The notes under the pieces: model-generated
What the model was told of the DNA's origin: nothing
What the model saw: only the letters and a program-made list of their open reading frames with translations
The model's database searches: none
Assembly (NCBI RefSeq): GCF_006717075.1
Contig: NZ_VFQC01000001.1
Location: forward strand, 2,217,501-2,281,500
From: Haloactinospora alba
Lineage (GTDB): Bacteria; Actinomycetota; Actinomycetes; Streptosporangiales; Streptosporangiaceae
Reading direction: 5' to 3'
Length of the DNA stretch: 64,000 nt
Shown: positions 16,166-23,195 of the stretch, one piece after another
Layout: every line of letters starts with the position of its first letter
Position numbering within the stretch: the stretch's first letter is position 1
Made by a program: the position numbers and the translations under genes

Positions 16166-18196
16166 CTACCGGCGCCCCTCCCTGGCCCGACGGTCGAGTT
16201 CCTGCAGGTAGGCGTTGTAGGCGTCCATGTCGGCGTCGTCCGAGCCGCCGCGTTTGCTGTGCCGCTCACGGCGGCGCTCGATGCGTTCCTCGTCCCGCGA
16301 CCACTGGACGACCAGCGCGGTCAGCACGACCGAGGTCGGGATCTCCCCGATGGCCCAGGCGATACCGCCGCCGGAGTACTGGTCCTCGGCGAGGCCGTCG
16401 TTCCACGGCACCTCGAACTGGCCGTAGTACTCCATCGCCAACGGGGCGGACTGCATCATGATCGTGATGCCGAAGAAGGCGTGCATCCCCATCGCCAGCA
16501 GGAGCAGCACCACACGCAGCAGGTAGGGGAGTTTCCGCGGACCGGGGTCCACCCCGATGATGACCCAGTAGAACAGGAAACCGGTCACCAGGAAGTGGAC
16601 GTTCATCGCCAGATGCCCGAAGTGGTTGTCCATCAGGGTCGGGAACAGCGACGTGAAGTACAGCGCGTAGGGGCTGACCACGAACAGCGGAGCGGCGATG
16701 ACGGGGTGGGTGACCCACTGGGAGAACCTGCTCTGCAGCAGGATGTTCAGCCACTCCCGCGGCCCCCGGTCCCCGCGCACGGCGGCGGGCCGCAGCGCGC
16801 GCAGCGCCAGGGTCACCGGGGCTCCCAGCACCAGCAGGATCGGCGTGAGCATGGACAGCACCATGTGCTGGATCATGTGGGTGCTGAACAGCACCATGGA
16901 ATAGGTACCGAAGCCGCTGAGCAGCATGGCGACCAGGGTCAGCAGCCCCAGCGCCCAGGACAGGGCCCGTCCCCACGGCCAGCGGTCACCGCGGCGCACC
17001 AACCGCGCTATCCCGGCGGCGTACAGCCCGCCGAGAAGCAGCACGGCGACGATGAAGAACAGGTCCGGGCGCCACAGGGTCAGCAGCGTGTGCGCGCTGA
17101 TCGGGGGCGGCATCGGGAAACCGAGCGTGGCGGTCACCCGGTCCGGGGTGCCTTCGGGCGTGGGCGGCGCGGTTCGGGCGAGGGCGGTGGCCAGCCCCAT
17201 CACCGCCGCCATGAGGGTGAGTTCGACGCCGGCCAGCCGGACGAACCCGCCCCTGCCCCCGTCCGCGAGGATTCGTGTGACCGTCCATCGGCGGTGCGCC
17301 CACCCGATGGCGCCCAGTCCGACGAAAACCGCGATCTTGGCCAGCAGGATCCGCCCGTAGCCGGTGGTGACGAGCTCCTCGGGGCCGAACAGGCGCGTCG
17401 CGGCGCTGGCCGTCCCTCCGACGGCGACACCGGCGTAGGCCCACAGGGCCAACCGGCTGAACCGCTCCACCGCTGTCGGCGCGTGTTCGCCACCGCCCCG
17501 CAGGCCGTGGAAGGTGACGGCGGCGAGCCCTCCGACCCAGACGCAGACCGCCACGACGTGCAGCGCGACTCCGGTCACGGCGAGCTCGTGGTTGAGCGCC
17601 GAGGCCGCGTGCCCGGTCAGCGCGGGGGGAAGGATCCCGCCCAGCGCCATCGCGGCAGCGGCGACGGCGCCGTTGGCGGAGTGCGCCACGCGGCTCACGA
17701 ACGCGGTGCCCGTGGCCAGGAGAACCACCGCCACCAGCCCCACCCCCTGGTCGGAGGCGCTCGCATGGGCCGTGATGTCCTCCCCGAGGACCTGCGTCGG
17801 CGGGAGGCCGGTCAGATCGGACACCTGGAAGACGAGTGTCGCCGCGGCCGCCGCCGCCCACAGCAGTGCGCTCCAGGAGGCCCCGCGCGCGTAGCCGCGC
17901 GCTTGGGCGGCCAGTCCTCCGCGGTCCGACGGCAGCAGGAACGCCGCCAGCAGCAGGAGACCGACGGTGAACGCGCCCAGGAGGTGGGTCGCTGTCGTCG
18001 CGACGGGCAGTCCCCACCGGGTCACCGGCCCCGGGTCGGGCAGCCCGGGAATGGCTCGGGAGGCCACCGCGCCTCCCCCCAACAGGGCGATGATGAGGGC
18101 GATGAGGCAGGAGGCCAGGGCGGAGACGGCGATCACGACAACCGTGTCGGTTCCGCTACCGCGCTTCGGGGCCTGTGGGGTGACCGGGGACGTCAC
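16166..18196 (-). CDS. CopD-CtaG fusion: copper resistance D domain plus cytochrome c oxidase assembly domain
   Basis: A 676-residue polytopic membrane protein. The N-terminal half (about residues 20-360) is CopD-like, with HVVAVCVWVGGLAAVTFHG and a series of helices. The C-terminal half (about residues 400-660) is CtaG-like (caa3_CtaG), with FSTHMIQHMVLSMLTPILL, NVHFLVTGFLFYWVIIGVDP and ITIMMQ. Such fusions are common in actinobacteria and are associated with copper supply to heme-copper oxidase. The start is GTG at 18196 behind GGAG. The C terminus is charged and cytoplasmic. A 44-codon membrane-protein gene precedes it by 28 bases. Confidence 0.9.
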   Translation of the reverse strand: MTSPVTPQAPKRGSGTDTVVVIAVSALASCLIALIIALLGGGAVASRAIPGLPDPGPVTRWGLPVATTATHLLGAFTVGLLLLAAFLLPSDRGGLAAQARGYARGASWSALLWAAAAAATLVFQVSDLTGLPPTQVLGEDITAHASASDQGVGLVAVVLLATGTAFVSRVAHSANGAVAAAAMALGGILPPALTGHAASALNHELAVTGVALHVVAVCVWVGGLAAVTFHGLRGGGEHAPTAVERFSRLALWAYAGVAVGGTASAATRLFGPEELVTTGYGRILLAKIAVFVGLGAIGWAHRRWTVTRILADGGRGGFVRLAGVELTLMAAVMGLATALARTAPPTPEGTPDRVTATLGFPMPPPISAHTLLTLWRPDLFFIVAVLLLGGLYAAGIARLVRRGDRWPWGRALSWALGLLTLVAMLLSGFGTYSMVLFSTHMIQHMVLSMLTPILLVLGAPVTLALRALRPAAVRGDRGPREWLNILLQSRFSQWVTHPVIAAPLFVVSPYALYFTSLFPTLMDNHFGHLAMNVHFLVTGFLFYWVIIGVDPGPRKLPYLLRVVLLLLAMGMHAFFGITIMMQSAPLAMEYYGQFEVPWNDGLAEDQYSGGGIAWAIGEIPTSVVLTALVVQWSRDEERIERRRERHSKRGGSDDADMDAYNAYLQELDRRAREGRR

Positions 18197-18224
18197 GTGT
18201 GCTACTCCGTCGGAGTCGTCGACA

Positions 18225-18359
18225 CTAGTTGTCTCGGTGGTGGCTGACCACCACGGCGGCGATGGCCGCACCGACCAGCAGCCCGAGAACCCCCCAGATC
18301 CAGGGGGTGACGGACGTTCCTCCGCCGGCGAGCGCGAGAGCGGCAACTGCGGGGTTCAC
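18225..18359 (-). CDS. 44-residue single-span membrane protein upstream of copD-ctaG
   Basis: This GTG-started 44-codon reading frame ends 28 bases before the CopD-CtaG gene on the same strand. It encodes a short N terminus, a WIWGVLGLLVGAAIAAVVV helix and a polar tail ending HHRDN. A purine-rich GAGG stretch precedes the start by about a dozen bases. The size and helix suit a small accessory subunit or assembly factor, but no family is recognised. The His-His-Arg-Asp tail could bind metal, which is conjecture. Confidence 0.5.
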   Translation of the reverse strand: MNPAVAALALAGGGTSVTPWIWGVLGLLVGAAIAAVVVSHHRDN

Positions 18360-18695
18360 GTACGGACCACCACCTCGGGCCAGGGTAGACCTATTACTAC
18401 AGGGCGTCGGCCCCGGGCCGTCGCGAACGGGAAGCGGCACGCCGGCGCGACGACCGGAACGGTACGGAAACAGCGACACAGCCACGTGCGGAGGTACCAG
18501 CGTGCCACACTGCGGTGACACACATCTCACACGCCGCGACCGCCCGACGACCGGGTTTCCCGAGGAGTGCGGCCGTGTCCCGCGAAACCGGCGTTCCGCG
18601 CCCCGGGAGGAAACGCTCGCGGGGAGAGGCTGCCGACGGAGCGGCCCCGGGAACGGGAACCGCCCGAAACGTACCGAGTCATGGAAGGAGCGGCG
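18360..18695. other. Divergent intergenic region (336 bases)
   Basis: This lies between the small membrane-protein gene and the allantoinase-like gene. It must hold the promoters for both directions. A TAGTAAT hexamer region on the minus strand near 18390-18397 could be the -10 of the copD-ctaG transcript. A GGAAGGAG ribosome site at 18683-18690 serves the rightward gene. I see no further gene. Confidence 0.5.
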
Positions 18696-20000
18696 ATGCC
18701 GCACGCCGACCGTGTTATCCGTTCCCAGCGCGTCGTGACCCCGACCGGCGTGGTTCCGGCCGCCGTCAGTGTCAGCGCGGGCAGGATCACCGGCGTTCAC
18801 GAGCGTGCCGCCGCGCTCAGCGCCGACGAGGAGACCGACCTCGGTCGGGTGGCGCTTCTTCCGGGAGGTGTGGATATCGACGTCGCCGCGCACGCCCCCG
18901 GCGGATCGCTCCGGGAGTGCTACACGCACACGGCCGGCGCCGCGCTCCGCGGCGGTGTCACGACCCTGGTGGCAGCACCCGGTCCCGCCGAGCCCGCCAT
19001 CGTCGACGCGGCAGCGCTCGAATGGCACCGGCGAGCGGCTTCCGCCGCCCCCGCGCACCTGGCGTTCCTCGCCGGAGTCACCGGTGACACCACCCCGGCC
19101 GGGATCGCCGAGCTGCACGCGGCCGGCGCCGCGGGGTTCTACTGCTCCCTGTCGGACGGGGGCGGGCCGGACCTCCCCGCCATACCCGAGGGGCAGCTGC
19201 GGTCGGTGATGGCCGAGCTCGCCGCCATACCCGCCCCGCTGCTGGTCCACCCCGAGGACGGCGGGGAGATGGCTGCCCACCGTGACGGGGACTCGTCCGA
19301 CCCCGCCGGGTCCCGGCCGCAGCGTGCGGAACGGCGGGGGCTGGAACGGGTCATGGCGGCCGTACGCGCGACCGGTGCGCCCACGCACGTCTGCCCGTTC
19401 ACCGCGGCCGACTCCGCCGCCCTGCTGGAAGCGGCACGAGCCGCCAGCCTACCGGTCAGCGCCCAGACCTGTCCGCACTACCTCTGCCTGCCGGTCGGCA
19501 GCGCCCCGGAAGGCGGAACGTCCCCGCGGGGACGCCCGCCGCTGCGTTCCGAGGCGAACCGGCAGGCCCTGTGGAGCGCCCTGCTCGCGCGTACCGATCC
19601 GGCGCTCACCGCCGTCGGGTCCGGCCACTGTCCCGCCGCCGGAATGGCGACGCTCCCCTGGGCGCTTCCGGCGCTGTGGACCGAAGCCGCACAGCGCGGC
19701 CGCGGCCTGGCCGATGTCGCCCGGTGGACCGCGACGAACCCCGCCACGCTCCTCGGGCTGCGCGCCAAGGGCAGGATCGCCGCCGGCCACGACGCCGACC
19801 TGGTCGCTTTCGACACCGCCGGCCGGCAGCCCGTCCCGGCGGAGTCGGAGGGTCCGTACGCGGCGCGCCGGCTCTCGGGGCGGGTCACCCGGACCTGGGT
19901 AGCGGGACGCAGGGTCCATCCCGCACCGGACCGGGAGCCCGGTCGGGAACGCGCCGGCTCCCCGGCTCAGGGGCCGAACCCCACCGCCGGGGTTACATAG
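18696..20000 (+). CDS. Allantoinase/dihydroorotase-like amidohydrolase lacking canonical metal ligands
   Basis: A 434-residue protein with the overall layout of cyclic amidohydrolases: a beta-rich N terminus (VIRSQRVVTPTG), a TIM barrel, and a C-terminal TNPATLLGLRAKGRIAAGHDADLV block typical of allantoinase and dihydroorotase. The usual DxHxH is IDVAAH here, so the first histidine is lost. The usual SDHAP is SGHCP, so the catalytic aspartate is lost. The TCPHYL histidine and a VHPED motif remain. The start at 18696 is set by GGAAGGAG. It is probably inactive as a normal hydrolase, or altered in chemistry. It precedes alanine dehydrogenase on the same strand after 104 bases. Confidence 0.78.
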   Translation: MPHADRVIRSQRVVTPTGVVPAAVSVSAGRITGVHERAAALSADEETDLGRVALLPGGVDIDVAAHAPGGSLRECYTHTAGAALRGGVTTLVAAPGPAEPAIVDAAALEWHRRAASAAPAHLAFLAGVTGDTTPAGIAELHAAGAAGFYCSLSDGGGPDLPAIPEGQLRSVMAELAAIPAPLLVHPEDGGEMAAHRDGDSSDPAGSRPQRAERRGLERVMAAVRATGAPTHVCPFTAADSAALLEAARAASLPVSAQTCPHYLCLPVGSAPEGGTSPRGRPPLRSEANRQALWSALLARTDPALTAVGSGHCPAAGMATLPWALPALWTEAAQRGRGLADVARWTATNPATLLGLRAKGRIAAGHDADLVAFDTAGRQPVPAESEGPYAARRLSGRVTRTWVAGRRVHPAPDREPGRERAGSPAQGPNPTAGVT

Positions 20001-20104
20001 TGTAAAGAAGAAGTGGTATCAGCATTCACGCCGGAGGTTGGCGGGCCGGGCCCGGACACGACACAGTGAATACGTGTCAACGGTGATACGTGAAGGAGAA
20101 CTAC

Positions 20105-21229
20105 GTGCGCATCGGCGTCCCCCGCGAAATCAAGAACCACGAGTACCGCGTCGCCATCGCTCCGGCCGGCGTCCACGAGCTGGTCATGCGCGGCCACTCG
20201 GTCGCCGTCGAACGTGACGCCGGCATCGGGTCCTCCATCTCCAACGAGGAGTTCACCGCCGCCGGCGCGCGCATCCTCGACAGCGCCGACGACGTGTGGG
20301 CCGAAGGCGACCTCATCCTGAAGGTCAAAGAGCCCGTTCCGGAGGAGCACCACCGGATGCGGGAGGGGCAGATCCTGTTCACCTACCTGCACCTGGCGGC
20401 GTCCCAGCCGTGCACCGACGCGCTCCTGGAGCGCGGGGTGACCGGTATCGCCTACGAGACCGTGCAGCTCCCCGACGGCTCGCTGCCGCTGCTGGCGCCG
20501 ATGTCCGAGGTCGCCGGACGGCTGGCCCCGCAGGTCGGCGCGACGACGCTGCAACGCCCCAACGGGGGGCGGGGAACGCTGATGGGCGGGGTTCCCGGGG
20601 TGCGCCCCACGCGGGTCACCGTCGTCGGAGCCGGGGTGTCCGGGATGAACGCGACCCAGATCGCTGTGGGCATGGGCGCCGACGTCACCCTGCTCGACCT
20701 GGACGTGGCCAAGCTGCGGCACGCGGAGGAACTGTACCGCGGCCGGGTGAGGACGGTGGTGTCCAACGCCTTCGAGCTGGAGCGCACCGCCCTCGAGTCG
20801 GACCTGCTCATCGGCGCGGTGCTCGTCCCCGGCGCGAAAGCCCCCAAACTGGTCAGCAACGAGCTGGTCTCCCGGATGAAACCCGGTGCGGTGCTGGTGG
20901 ACATCGCGATCGACCAGGGAGGGTGCTTCGCCGACTCTCGCCCCACCACGCACGACGCGCCCACGTTCGAGGTGCACGACACGGTCTTCTACTGCGTCGC
21001 GAACATGCCGGGGGCGGTACCCAACACCTCGACCCACGCGCTGACCAAGGACACGCTGCGTTACACGGTCGCCCTGGCGGACAAGGGGTGGAACCGCGCG
21101 CTCAACGACGACCCGGTGCTCGCCGGCGGTCTCAACACCCACGCCGGGGAGCTCACCAACGAGGCCGTGGCCCGGGCGCACGGGCGCACGTACCGCACCG
21201 TCGCCGAGACACTCGCCGAGACGGCGTGA
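20105..21229 (+). CDS. ald: Alanine dehydrogenase
   Basis: A 374-residue NAD-dependent L-alanine dehydrogenase, which interconverts alanine and pyruvate plus ammonia. Substrate residues are visible in NHEYRVAIAP (Arg), LILKVKEP (Lys), FTYLHLAAS (His) and DIAIDQGG (Asp). The nucleotide-binding loop is VVGAGVSGMNA. The GTG at 20105 is chosen because AAGGAG lies six bases upstream. The length is normal. A strong hairpin follows the stop, so the gene probably ends its own transcript. Confidence 0.95.
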   Translation: MRIGVPREIKNHEYRVAIAPAGVHELVMRGHSVAVERDAGIGSSISNEEFTAAGARILDSADDVWAEGDLILKVKEPVPEEHHRMREGQILFTYLHLAASQPCTDALLERGVTGIAYETVQLPDGSLPLLAPMSEVAGRLAPQVGATTLQRPNGGRGTLMGGVPGVRPTRVTVVGAGVSGMNATQIAVGMGADVTLLDLDVAKLRHAEELYRGRVRTVVSNAFELERTALESDLLIGAVLVPGAKAPKLVSNELVSRMKPGAVLVDIAIDQGGCFADSRPTTHDAPTFEVHDTVFYCVANMPGAVPNTSTHALTKDTLRYTVALADKGWNRALNDDPVLAGGLNTHAGELTNEAVARAHGRTYRTVAETLAETA

Positions 21230-21997: not shown

Positions 21998-22058
21998 GTT
22001 CGAGGGCAGGCATTTCACCTGTTCTCTCGTGTTCGTCGACGTAGGGAGGCGGATCCGC

Positions 22059-23195
22059 GTGTCACGCACGGAACCGGCGGCAACCACCCGGATCGTGGGC
22101 ATCGAGGCCTTCCTGGTGCGGCTTCCCCTGGTCCACGCCCGGGCCCGGAAGAGCGCGTCCAGGGACCGGCCGCGTTTCGCCCGGCACGCTCTGGTCCGGG
22201 TGACCGACCGGGACGGCGCGGCCGGCTGGGGGGAGGTTCCCGACGTCGACACCGCGCTGTGGCAGGCGCTCGTGGAGGAGCACGGCCCCGCCCTGCTCCG
22301 GCACTCCTGGAAGCGTCCCACGGAGGTCGAGGACGCGTTCACCGGCCTCGGTGACCTTCCCGCCGTTCGCGCGGGACTGGACACCGCCTGCTGGGACCTG
22401 TGGAGCGGGAAGCGCGGAACACCGCTCTCCCACGCCCTGGGGGGAAACCGCACCGCCGTCACGGCGGGGGTGACCCTCGCCCGCCAGCCCTCCGAGGAGT
22501 CCCTGGTCAGGGAGGTCAACCGGCACGTCGGCAGCGGGTTCCAGCGGGTCAGGTTGGACGTCGAACCGGGATGGGACGTGGAACCGGTACGCGCGGTGCA
22601 GGAACGCTTCCCGTTCCTCGTGCTCCAGGCCAACGCCGAGGGACGCTACACGGAGGAGACGGCGGATCTGGAGGCGTTGCGGGCGCTGGACAGCTACGGC
22701 CTGCTCGCCATCGAACAGCCCTTCCCCGCGCCGGATCTGGCGGCGCACGCCCGGCTTCGCCGCGAACTCCGCACACCGGTGGCGCTGAACACCTCGGTCG
22801 CCTCCCTCGCGGACCTGGACGAAGCGATCCGCCAGGAAGCCGGCGGCGCGTTGAACGTCCGGATGTCGCGGCTGGGGGGCCTGACCCAGGCCCGGCGCGC
22901 GCACGACCGCGCTGTGGACGCCGGATGGGACGTGTGGTGCGGTTCGGACGGGGAGTCCGGCCTCGGGCGGGCGAGCCTGGTCGCGTTGGCCTCGCTGCCC
23001 GGCGTCACCCTGCCCAGCGAGATGCCCGGAGCGGGCGGACGGTTCAGCCGGGAGACCGCGCAACCGCCGGTCCGCGCGCAGGACGGTGTCGTTCCCGTTC
23101 CGCTGACTCGGCCGGGGGCGGGGCACGACGTGGACCGGAAGGCACTGGACGCACTCACGGAGCGTTCCGCCACGGTGGGCAGTCCCGCCGGTTGA
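22059..23195 (+). CDS. Enolase-superfamily protein (OSBS/NSAR-like) that has lost its catalytic residues
   Basis: A 378-residue protein that aligns along its length with o-succinylbenzoate synthase/N-succinylamino acid racemase (MenC-like) enzymes: PGWDVEPVRAVQERFP, LLAIEQPFPAPDLAAHARL, CGSDGESGLGRASLVALASL, and a final PVPLTRPGAGHDVD. The catalytic set is gone. The KxK lysines are replaced (RVRLDVEPG). The first metal aspartate is Gln (VLQANAEG). The third metal position is Asn (VALNTSV). The second-half lysine is Arg (LNVRMSRLGG). Only the glutamate of IEQP remains. The frame is intact and normal in length. Start GTG at 22059 follows AGGGAGG. It is probably a pseudoenzyme. Confidence 0.82.
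   Translation: MSRTEPAATTRIVGIEAFLVRLPLVHARARKSASRDRPRFARHALVRVTDRDGAAGWGEVPDVDTALWQALVEEHGPALLRHSWKRPTEVEDAFTGLGDLPAVRAGLDTACWDLWSGKRGTPLSHALGGNRTAVTAGVTLARQPSEESLVREVNRHVGSGFQRVRLDVEPGWDVEPVRAVQERFPFLVLQANAEGRYTEETADLEALRALDSYGLLAIEQPFPAPDLAAHARLRRELRTPVALNTSVASLADLDEAIRQEAGGALNVRMSRLGGLTQARRAHDRAVDAGWDVWCGSDGESGLGRASLVALASLPGVTLPSEMPGAGGRFSRETAQPPVRAQDGVVPVPLTRPGAGHDVDRKALDALTERSATVGSPAG

Follow-up and report, generated by a model that had tools for sequence, protein, structure and literature searches.

How should an open gene be read when its product has the fold of an enzyme and almost none of that enzyme's catalytic residues? The question is raised by a gene of Haloactinospora alba found in a stretch of 64,000 nucleotides (positions 2,217,501 to 2,281,500 of contig NZ_VFQC01000001.1, assembly GCF_006717075.1; hereafter, the window). 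It belongs to the enolase superfamily and resembles enzymes of the NSAR/OSBS type. It could be a decaying gene, an enzyme working through other residues, or a pseudoenzyme retained for another task.

The gene and its catalytic positions

The gene was delimited from its frame, its Pfam, NCBIfam and PDB matches and its predicted fold. It lies at 22059-23195 (+ strand) and codes for 378 amino acids, from a GTG codon at 22059 to a stop codon at 23193-23195. Direct reading of the DNA places a putative ribosome site, AGGGAGG, at 22043-22049 (+ strand), 9 bases 5' of the start. In all these respects the gene is as a first, sequence-only reading of the window had described it. That reading had also proposed an alignment with OSBS/NSAR enzymes over the whole length, and this was borne out: the top PDB matches are N-acylamino acid racemases (E values down to 8.6e-66) and the predicted fold is the same. 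The Pfam domain MR_MLE_C (PF13378) was matched above its cut-off (E = 3.5e-36), while MR_MLE_N fell below (15.1 versus 22 bits). Structure prediction, which had been suggested as a check, gave a confident model (mean pLDDT 92.2, pTM 0.90) that matches the NSAR/OSBS structures over the whole fold (Z 47-49, about 2 A over 350-361 residues) and enolase-superfamily structures overall at Z 40-49. The protein is thus predicted to have the capping domain and modified TIM barrel typical of the superfamily.

The six catalytic and metal positions of NSAR/OSBS enzymes (K163, D189 and so on, in what we take to be the Amycolatopsis numbering) were located by alignment to the PDB racemases. Where these have K, K, D, E, D and K, the window protein has R165, D167, N192, E219, N244 and R268. 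The two lysines of the KxK motif (22551-22559, + strand) have become R165 (22551-22553) and D167 (22557-22559), the first metal Asp N192 (22632-22634, + strand), the third metal Asp N244 (22788-22790, + strand) and the second-half catalytic Lys R268 (22860-22862, + strand). The second metal Glu, E219 (22713-22715, + strand), is the sole survivor. The protein therefore has neither part of the acid/base pair (KxK motif plus second-half Lys), and only one of the three metal ligands that enolase-superfamily enzymes carry on three strand ends. The losses listed by the sequence-only reading were right in substance; one detail needs correcting, since the metal Asp position within its VLQAN block is held by N (N192), not by Q. 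The Q was considered and rejected, as its counterpart in the Deinococcus enzyme is a Thr.

That reading had named, as an outcome that would overturn it, another alignment restoring active-site residues. For the lysines, none can exist: they occur only at 31, 85, 118 and 361, with none between 119 and 360, i.e. none in the barrel, and 14 intact NSAR-type proteins align unambiguously with the window protein. Nor is the loss an alignment artefact, because these 14 rows and 12 further ones (L227-L238), which come from two other families of the class and were among the best 30 loci of a 296-genome search, all read K, K, D, E, D, K.

These observations make it extremely improbable that the protein is still an NSAR/OSBS enzyme acting through its substituted residues. 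Its fold and best matches are indeed NSAR/OSBS, but all three lysines and two of the three metal ligands are gone, the score with the NCBIfam OSBS model TIGR01928 is 179.1 bits (cut-off 200.65) against 295.4 bits for an intact relative from genome G025, and the window genome has a MenC of its own, encoded separately (416.3 bits, cut-off 288). We infer from the residues that the protein is without catalytic activity.

Residue loss, descent and selection among the relatives

A pattern scan of reference genomes yielded 114 relatives, and the 80 best loci were retained. Within the GTDB family of the window, 286 of the 297 genomes searched gave matches of any strength. The best 80 loci bear the titles of Nocardiopsidaceae or Thermomonosporaceae genera, save Glycomyces fuscus (L045) and a MAG (L031); the remaining relatives come from genomes of that GTDB family. 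Loci from the wider search were then joined to these. With duplicates excluded, along with proteins no longer than 300 amino acids, 115 distinct pseudo rows (window included), nearly all from Streptosporangiales, were aligned with the 14 intact rows. Fifty-nine distinct rows, window included, with more than 54% identity make up the Nocardiopsidaceae-type set.

The three lysines were absent from all 115 pseudo rows, none of which had Lys at any catalytic position; all six residues were present in each of the 14 intact rows. The search for homologues with the same substitutions, which had been proposed as a check, was thus positive as regards the lysines. L105, a fragment of 261 amino acids that lies at the end of a contig and stands outside the 115 rows, carries Lys at position 167. 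Among the best 30 loci of the 296-genome search, the intact rows suggest that the dead form is absent outside the order. The metal ligands fared better than the lysines, D192 being retained in 104 and E219 in 109 of the 115 rows: most relatives have two ligands and the window protein, one of the 11 rows that lack D192 as well, has one. Counting all six residues, one is left in 13 pseudo rows, two in 80 and three in 22.

At position 165, 58 of the 115 rows have R and 57 have T, the residue being invariant inside each half of the clade; R165 and E219 are each present in 59 of 59 Nocardiopsidaceae-type rows. Within the same 59 rows, the third-metal position is less conserved than 375 of the 378 positions and the second-half lysine position is D in 29, R in 23 and another residue in 7. 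Positions 167, 244, 245, 268 and 299 vary between or inside lineages of the dead clade; an R245/D268 charge swap, found in 27 rows of one subclade, may be a single event. Much of the old pocket has also drifted: the residues that all 14 intact rows share (F/T/S of the 20s loop; S/G/I at 139-142; M297, N307 and S325) survive in no more than a quarter of the 115. Conservation is found elsewhere: 42 positions, D192 and E219 among them, are at least 90% conserved with the identical residue in the pseudo and intact sets, and 84 positions are at least 97% conserved in the 59 Nocardiopsidaceae-type rows. The dead clade conserves H125 (96%) and N154 (100%), residues that no more than 15% of intact rows share; the two are candidates for an interface. 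An N-terminal truncation in the Streptosporangiaceae-type members, whose matches start at residue 42, was considered and dropped, as the alignment has 9-56 residues there.

The fixation of residue 165 in each lineage and the frequent retention of D192 and E219 would suit a new chemistry, in which the barrel would catalyse another reaction through Arg or Thr, Glu and Asp, perhaps with a bound metal where D192 and E219 remain. Enolase-superfamily members with other acid/base residues do exist, mannonate dehydratase using Tyr/Arg/His. However, the five variable positions listed above leave no clade-wide catalytic set, the window protein is itself without D192, and no pathway common to the whole dead clade was seen among the neighbouring genes. 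We regard a new chemistry as quite unlikely.

The pseudo rows group together in the sampled trees. In a 71-row tree, 57 of them stood on one side of a branch with a support of 100/98; in a tree where 18 catalytic columns (the six sites and their neighbours) were masked, 29 were united at 100/99. The intact NSAR-type protein of G025 (L145), which is the best-scoring intact relative (51-53% identical to the window protein), joined the pseudo clade in the masked tree at 92/85, a support that is not decisive; by identity it is nearer to other intact proteins (71% to L156). Among the genomes read, G007, G090, G184, G295, G187 and G063 have dead and intact forms together. The simplest account is a single loss of the acid/base lysines and the third metal ligand from an NSAR/OSBS-type racemase, in an ancestor of the sampled Streptosporangiales lineages; the protein would then have been inherited with frame and fold kept and much of the old pocket drifting. 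The window protein would have lost a further metal ligand, D192, in addition.

Across 110 loci (95 distinct proteins, with two intact-type loci counted in), 109 carry the gene in one open frame. The exception, L108, has a split frame that could be a sequencing error; L089 shows no more than a premature stop, opposite residue 374 of 378. The dN/dS ratios were calculated by the Nei-Gojobori method for the 834 pairs, out of 861 from 42 Nocardiopsidaceae-type loci (the window not among them), in which dS was 0.15-1.2 in all three genes compared. For the pseudo-NSAR/OSBS gene the median was 0.39 and the maximum 0.84, so that the ratio was below 1 in each of the 834 pairs, which are not independent of one another. 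On the same pair set, the median was 0.22 for the neighbouring alanine dehydrogenase gene and 0.43 for the allantoinase-like gene described below, the latter including pairs with L032 (dN about 2) that are likely a codon-mapping artefact. Nei-Gojobori ratios are prone to come out too high in genes rich in G+C, and the safe reading is therefore purifying selection on the pseudo-NSAR/OSBS gene, weaker than that on a working enzyme.

Slow decay under relaxed selection, without any function, would account for a dN/dS above that of alanine dehydrogenase, for the drift of several active-site columns and for the one split frame among 110 loci. It is hard to reconcile with the 109 unbroken frames, with a ratio below 1 in all 834 pairs and with the 84 positions kept at 97% or more among 59 rows; we consider it very unlikely. 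The argument of the sequence-only reading against simple decay therefore stands on broader ground, and the situation by which it would have conceded decay (no conserved homologues, relaxed selection) is not the one observed, even if the constraint is below that on alanine dehydrogenase.

Gene neighbourhood and the allantoinase-like protein

The comparison of neighbourhoods used crude gene calls and crude clusters; for each cluster that was given a name, a single member was tested by Pfam. Genes for M20 peptidases and GNAT acyltransferases fit the known N-succinylamino acid racemase pathway. Of the 14 intact NSAR-type loci, 10 have an M20 gene, 8 a GNAT gene and 12 either of them. Near the dead clade gene, M20 or GNAT was found in none of 106 pseudo loci (103 distinct ends; 78 with flanks of up to 6 kb and 28 with flanks of up to about 10 kb). 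The 28 longer-flank loci, all negative, have flanks comparable with those of most intact loci. The NSAR pathway neighbours are thus missing from the dead clade within these flanks.

The window gene lies instead in another conserved block. It is marked by a CopD/CtaG-type membrane protein gene (16166-18346, - strand), followed by the gene of an allantoinase-like protein (18681-20000, + strand) and by an alanine dehydrogenase gene (20090-21229, + strand; TIGR00518, 546.5 bits, cut-off 391.85), which stands between the two pseudoenzyme genes. Among the best 80 loci, 44 of Nocardiopsidaceae type have the order ctaG(-), allantoinase-like(+), alanine dehydrogenase(+), pseudo-NSAR/OSBS gene(+), the allantoinase-like gene being present in 44, ctaG in 43 and alanine dehydrogenase in 42; in the 36 other loci, none of the three was found nearby. 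Where alanine dehydrogenase is missing (L031 and L037), the two pseudoenzyme genes still adjoin, and one of the wider loci (L182, from G062) has ctaG and alanine dehydrogenase with no allantoinase-like gene there. The neighbours differ from family to family, and none was seen to accompany the gene across the whole dead clade. In the other families (L072-L109 and L147-L177), a LCP (LytR-CpsA-Psr) gene occurs in 53 of 59 dead loci (57 distinct) and an IMPDH-family gene in 44 of 59; DUF5682, VWA_CoxE and MFS genes lie near several copies in L166-L177 (e.g. L168).

The allantoinase-like protein (439 amino acids, AllB-like) appears from profile, alignment and model to be a pseudoenzyme too. D67, A69, Y154, P239 and G315 replace metal ligands, which we take to be H59, H61, K146, H242 and D315 in E. 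coli numbering, and H190 is kept. All 46 rows, among them the window and two loci counted twice (L005/L031 and L026/L037), have five of the six ligands replaced, the exception being H186 (E. coli numbering). The TIGR03178 score of the protein is 233.6 bits, below the cut-off of 357.85; its model (pLDDT 82) matches the allantoinase structure 3hm7 at Z 46. Thirty loci from 30 wider genomes, 29 of which had a match, comprise 24 intact forms (H, H, K, H, H, D) and six dead ones, namely the window's own, four of Nocardiopsidaceae type and that of G059.

Elsewhere, the window genome codes for an allantoinase above the cut-off (565 bits) and for an allantoicase. A role of the pseudoenzymes in allantoin use is nevertheless unlikely, because genome G039, which has exactly the protein of Thermobifida fusca L035, keeps both pseudoenzymes with neither allantoinase nor allantoicase over cut-off.

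An intact counterpart of this arrangement was found in G025, where one contig carries a xanthine dehydrogenase subunit, an intact allantoinase (555.5 bits), an allantoicase, an alanine dehydrogenase and the intact NSAR-type gene, the last about 8.5 kb beyond alanine dehydrogenase with other genes in between. On the other side, past xanthine dehydrogenase, the CopD/CtaG protein of the window has a counterpart at 56% identity, with SbcC beyond it. Once strand is taken into account, the genes in common (L217 4879-18482, and L218) follow the window's order, and we take this order, seen in one genome, to be the ancestral state, which would have preceded the disarming of both window genes. This could mean that two enzymes of one purine/amino-acid breakdown locus, both stripped of catalysis, now form a non-catalytic complex or regulator, the racemase half being older and order-wide and the allantoinase half having joined in Nocardiopsidaceae-type bacteria; we hold this to be rather unlikely. 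In a mirror-tree test on 40 loci, the partial r between the pseudo-NSAR/OSBS and pseudo-allantoinase proteins was 0.49 and that with the unrelated neighbour ctaG 0.53, hence there was no specific signal.

The same block bears on the possibility of a ligand sensor: a barrel mouth rebuilt around R165 (or T165) and E219 would bind a metabolite, without turnover, and signal to a partner such as alanine dehydrogenase. The fixation of R or T at 165 in each half of the clade (58 and 57 rows), the persistence of E219 and D192, and the intact alanine dehydrogenase in the block of 42 of 44 Nocardiopsidaceae-type loci are in its favour. But many substrate-side pocket positions are gone, alanine dehydrogenase is missing from two of the 44 blocks and from the vicinity of the gene in the 36 other loci, and the protein shows no co-variation with it beyond that with other genes (mirror-tree partial r 0.07). 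A sensor therefore looks doubtful to us.

On balance we find it probable, if by no means assured, that the protein is a maintained pseudoenzyme whose likeliest work is to bind a macromolecule, as a scaffold or subunit, rather than to catalyse. Macromolecule binding is placed first because the pocket has much drifted while the body is kept. Selection would then keep the folded capping-plus-barrel body, in Nocardiopsidaceae-type genomes beside a second disarmed TIM-barrel protein, a relative of allantoinase. The pseudoenzyme part of this reading, already put forward by the sequence-only reading, gains from what comparison of the sequences establishes: the residue loss, its restriction to a single clade in the sampled trees, the open frames and dN/dS below 1, the conserved block, the predicted intact fold and the vanished NSAR neighbourhood. 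The protein accordingly has what defines a pseudoenzyme: its catalytic residues are lost, while orthologues keep frame and fold, apparently through purifying selection. A scaffold role, like any partner, is our guess. A point against a pure scaffold is that D192, E219 and residue 165 seem still constrained, which a scaffold would not require.

Relation to known systems

An open-access literature search, with most subscription papers outside its scope, turned up no paper that we recognised as dealing with the dead clade or the pseudo-allantoinase, which is weak evidence of novelty. Pseudoenzymes as such are already known. Since enolase-superfamily proteins are readily annotated as enzymes, the catalytic residues of OSBS-like matches from Nocardiopsis, Thermobifida and Actinomadura should be inspected before the label racemase or OSBS is applied. 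An order-wide clade that has kept the fold and dropped the catalytic lysines also offers a natural experiment on the passage of a TIM-barrel enzyme to a non-enzyme, for which the intact relative found in the same gene order is a starting point; the two adjoining pseudoenzymes are a concrete pair on which to pose the question of complex formation.

The closest known system is the NSAR/OSBS family itself (TIGR01928; PDB 1sja, 2zc8, 1r0m and 1wuf), with which the window protein shares whole-length homology and both the capping and barrel domains. It differs from that family in having no catalytic lysines and one of three metal ligands, in the loss of the 20s-loop residues and, for the dead clade, in the absence of M20/GNAT neighbours. 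As to the pseudo-allantoinase, the collapsin response mediator proteins (CRMP/DPYSL) are non-enzymatic relatives of dihydropyrimidinase; it is similar to them in predicted fold (Z 38-40) and in apparently being a disarmed amidohydrolase, but in structure and sequence it is nearest to bacterial allantoinase (Z 45-46). A working model for the window protein can be borrowed from the inactive dihydroorotase of Pseudomonas aspartate transcarbamoylase and the fungal pseudo-DHOase domains, described as TIM-barrel relatives of enzymes that lack activity and aid the assembly of another enzyme (PMC4581275). The inactive dihydroorotase belongs to a superfamily other than that of the enolase-type protein, and is related to the neighbouring pseudo-allantoinase.
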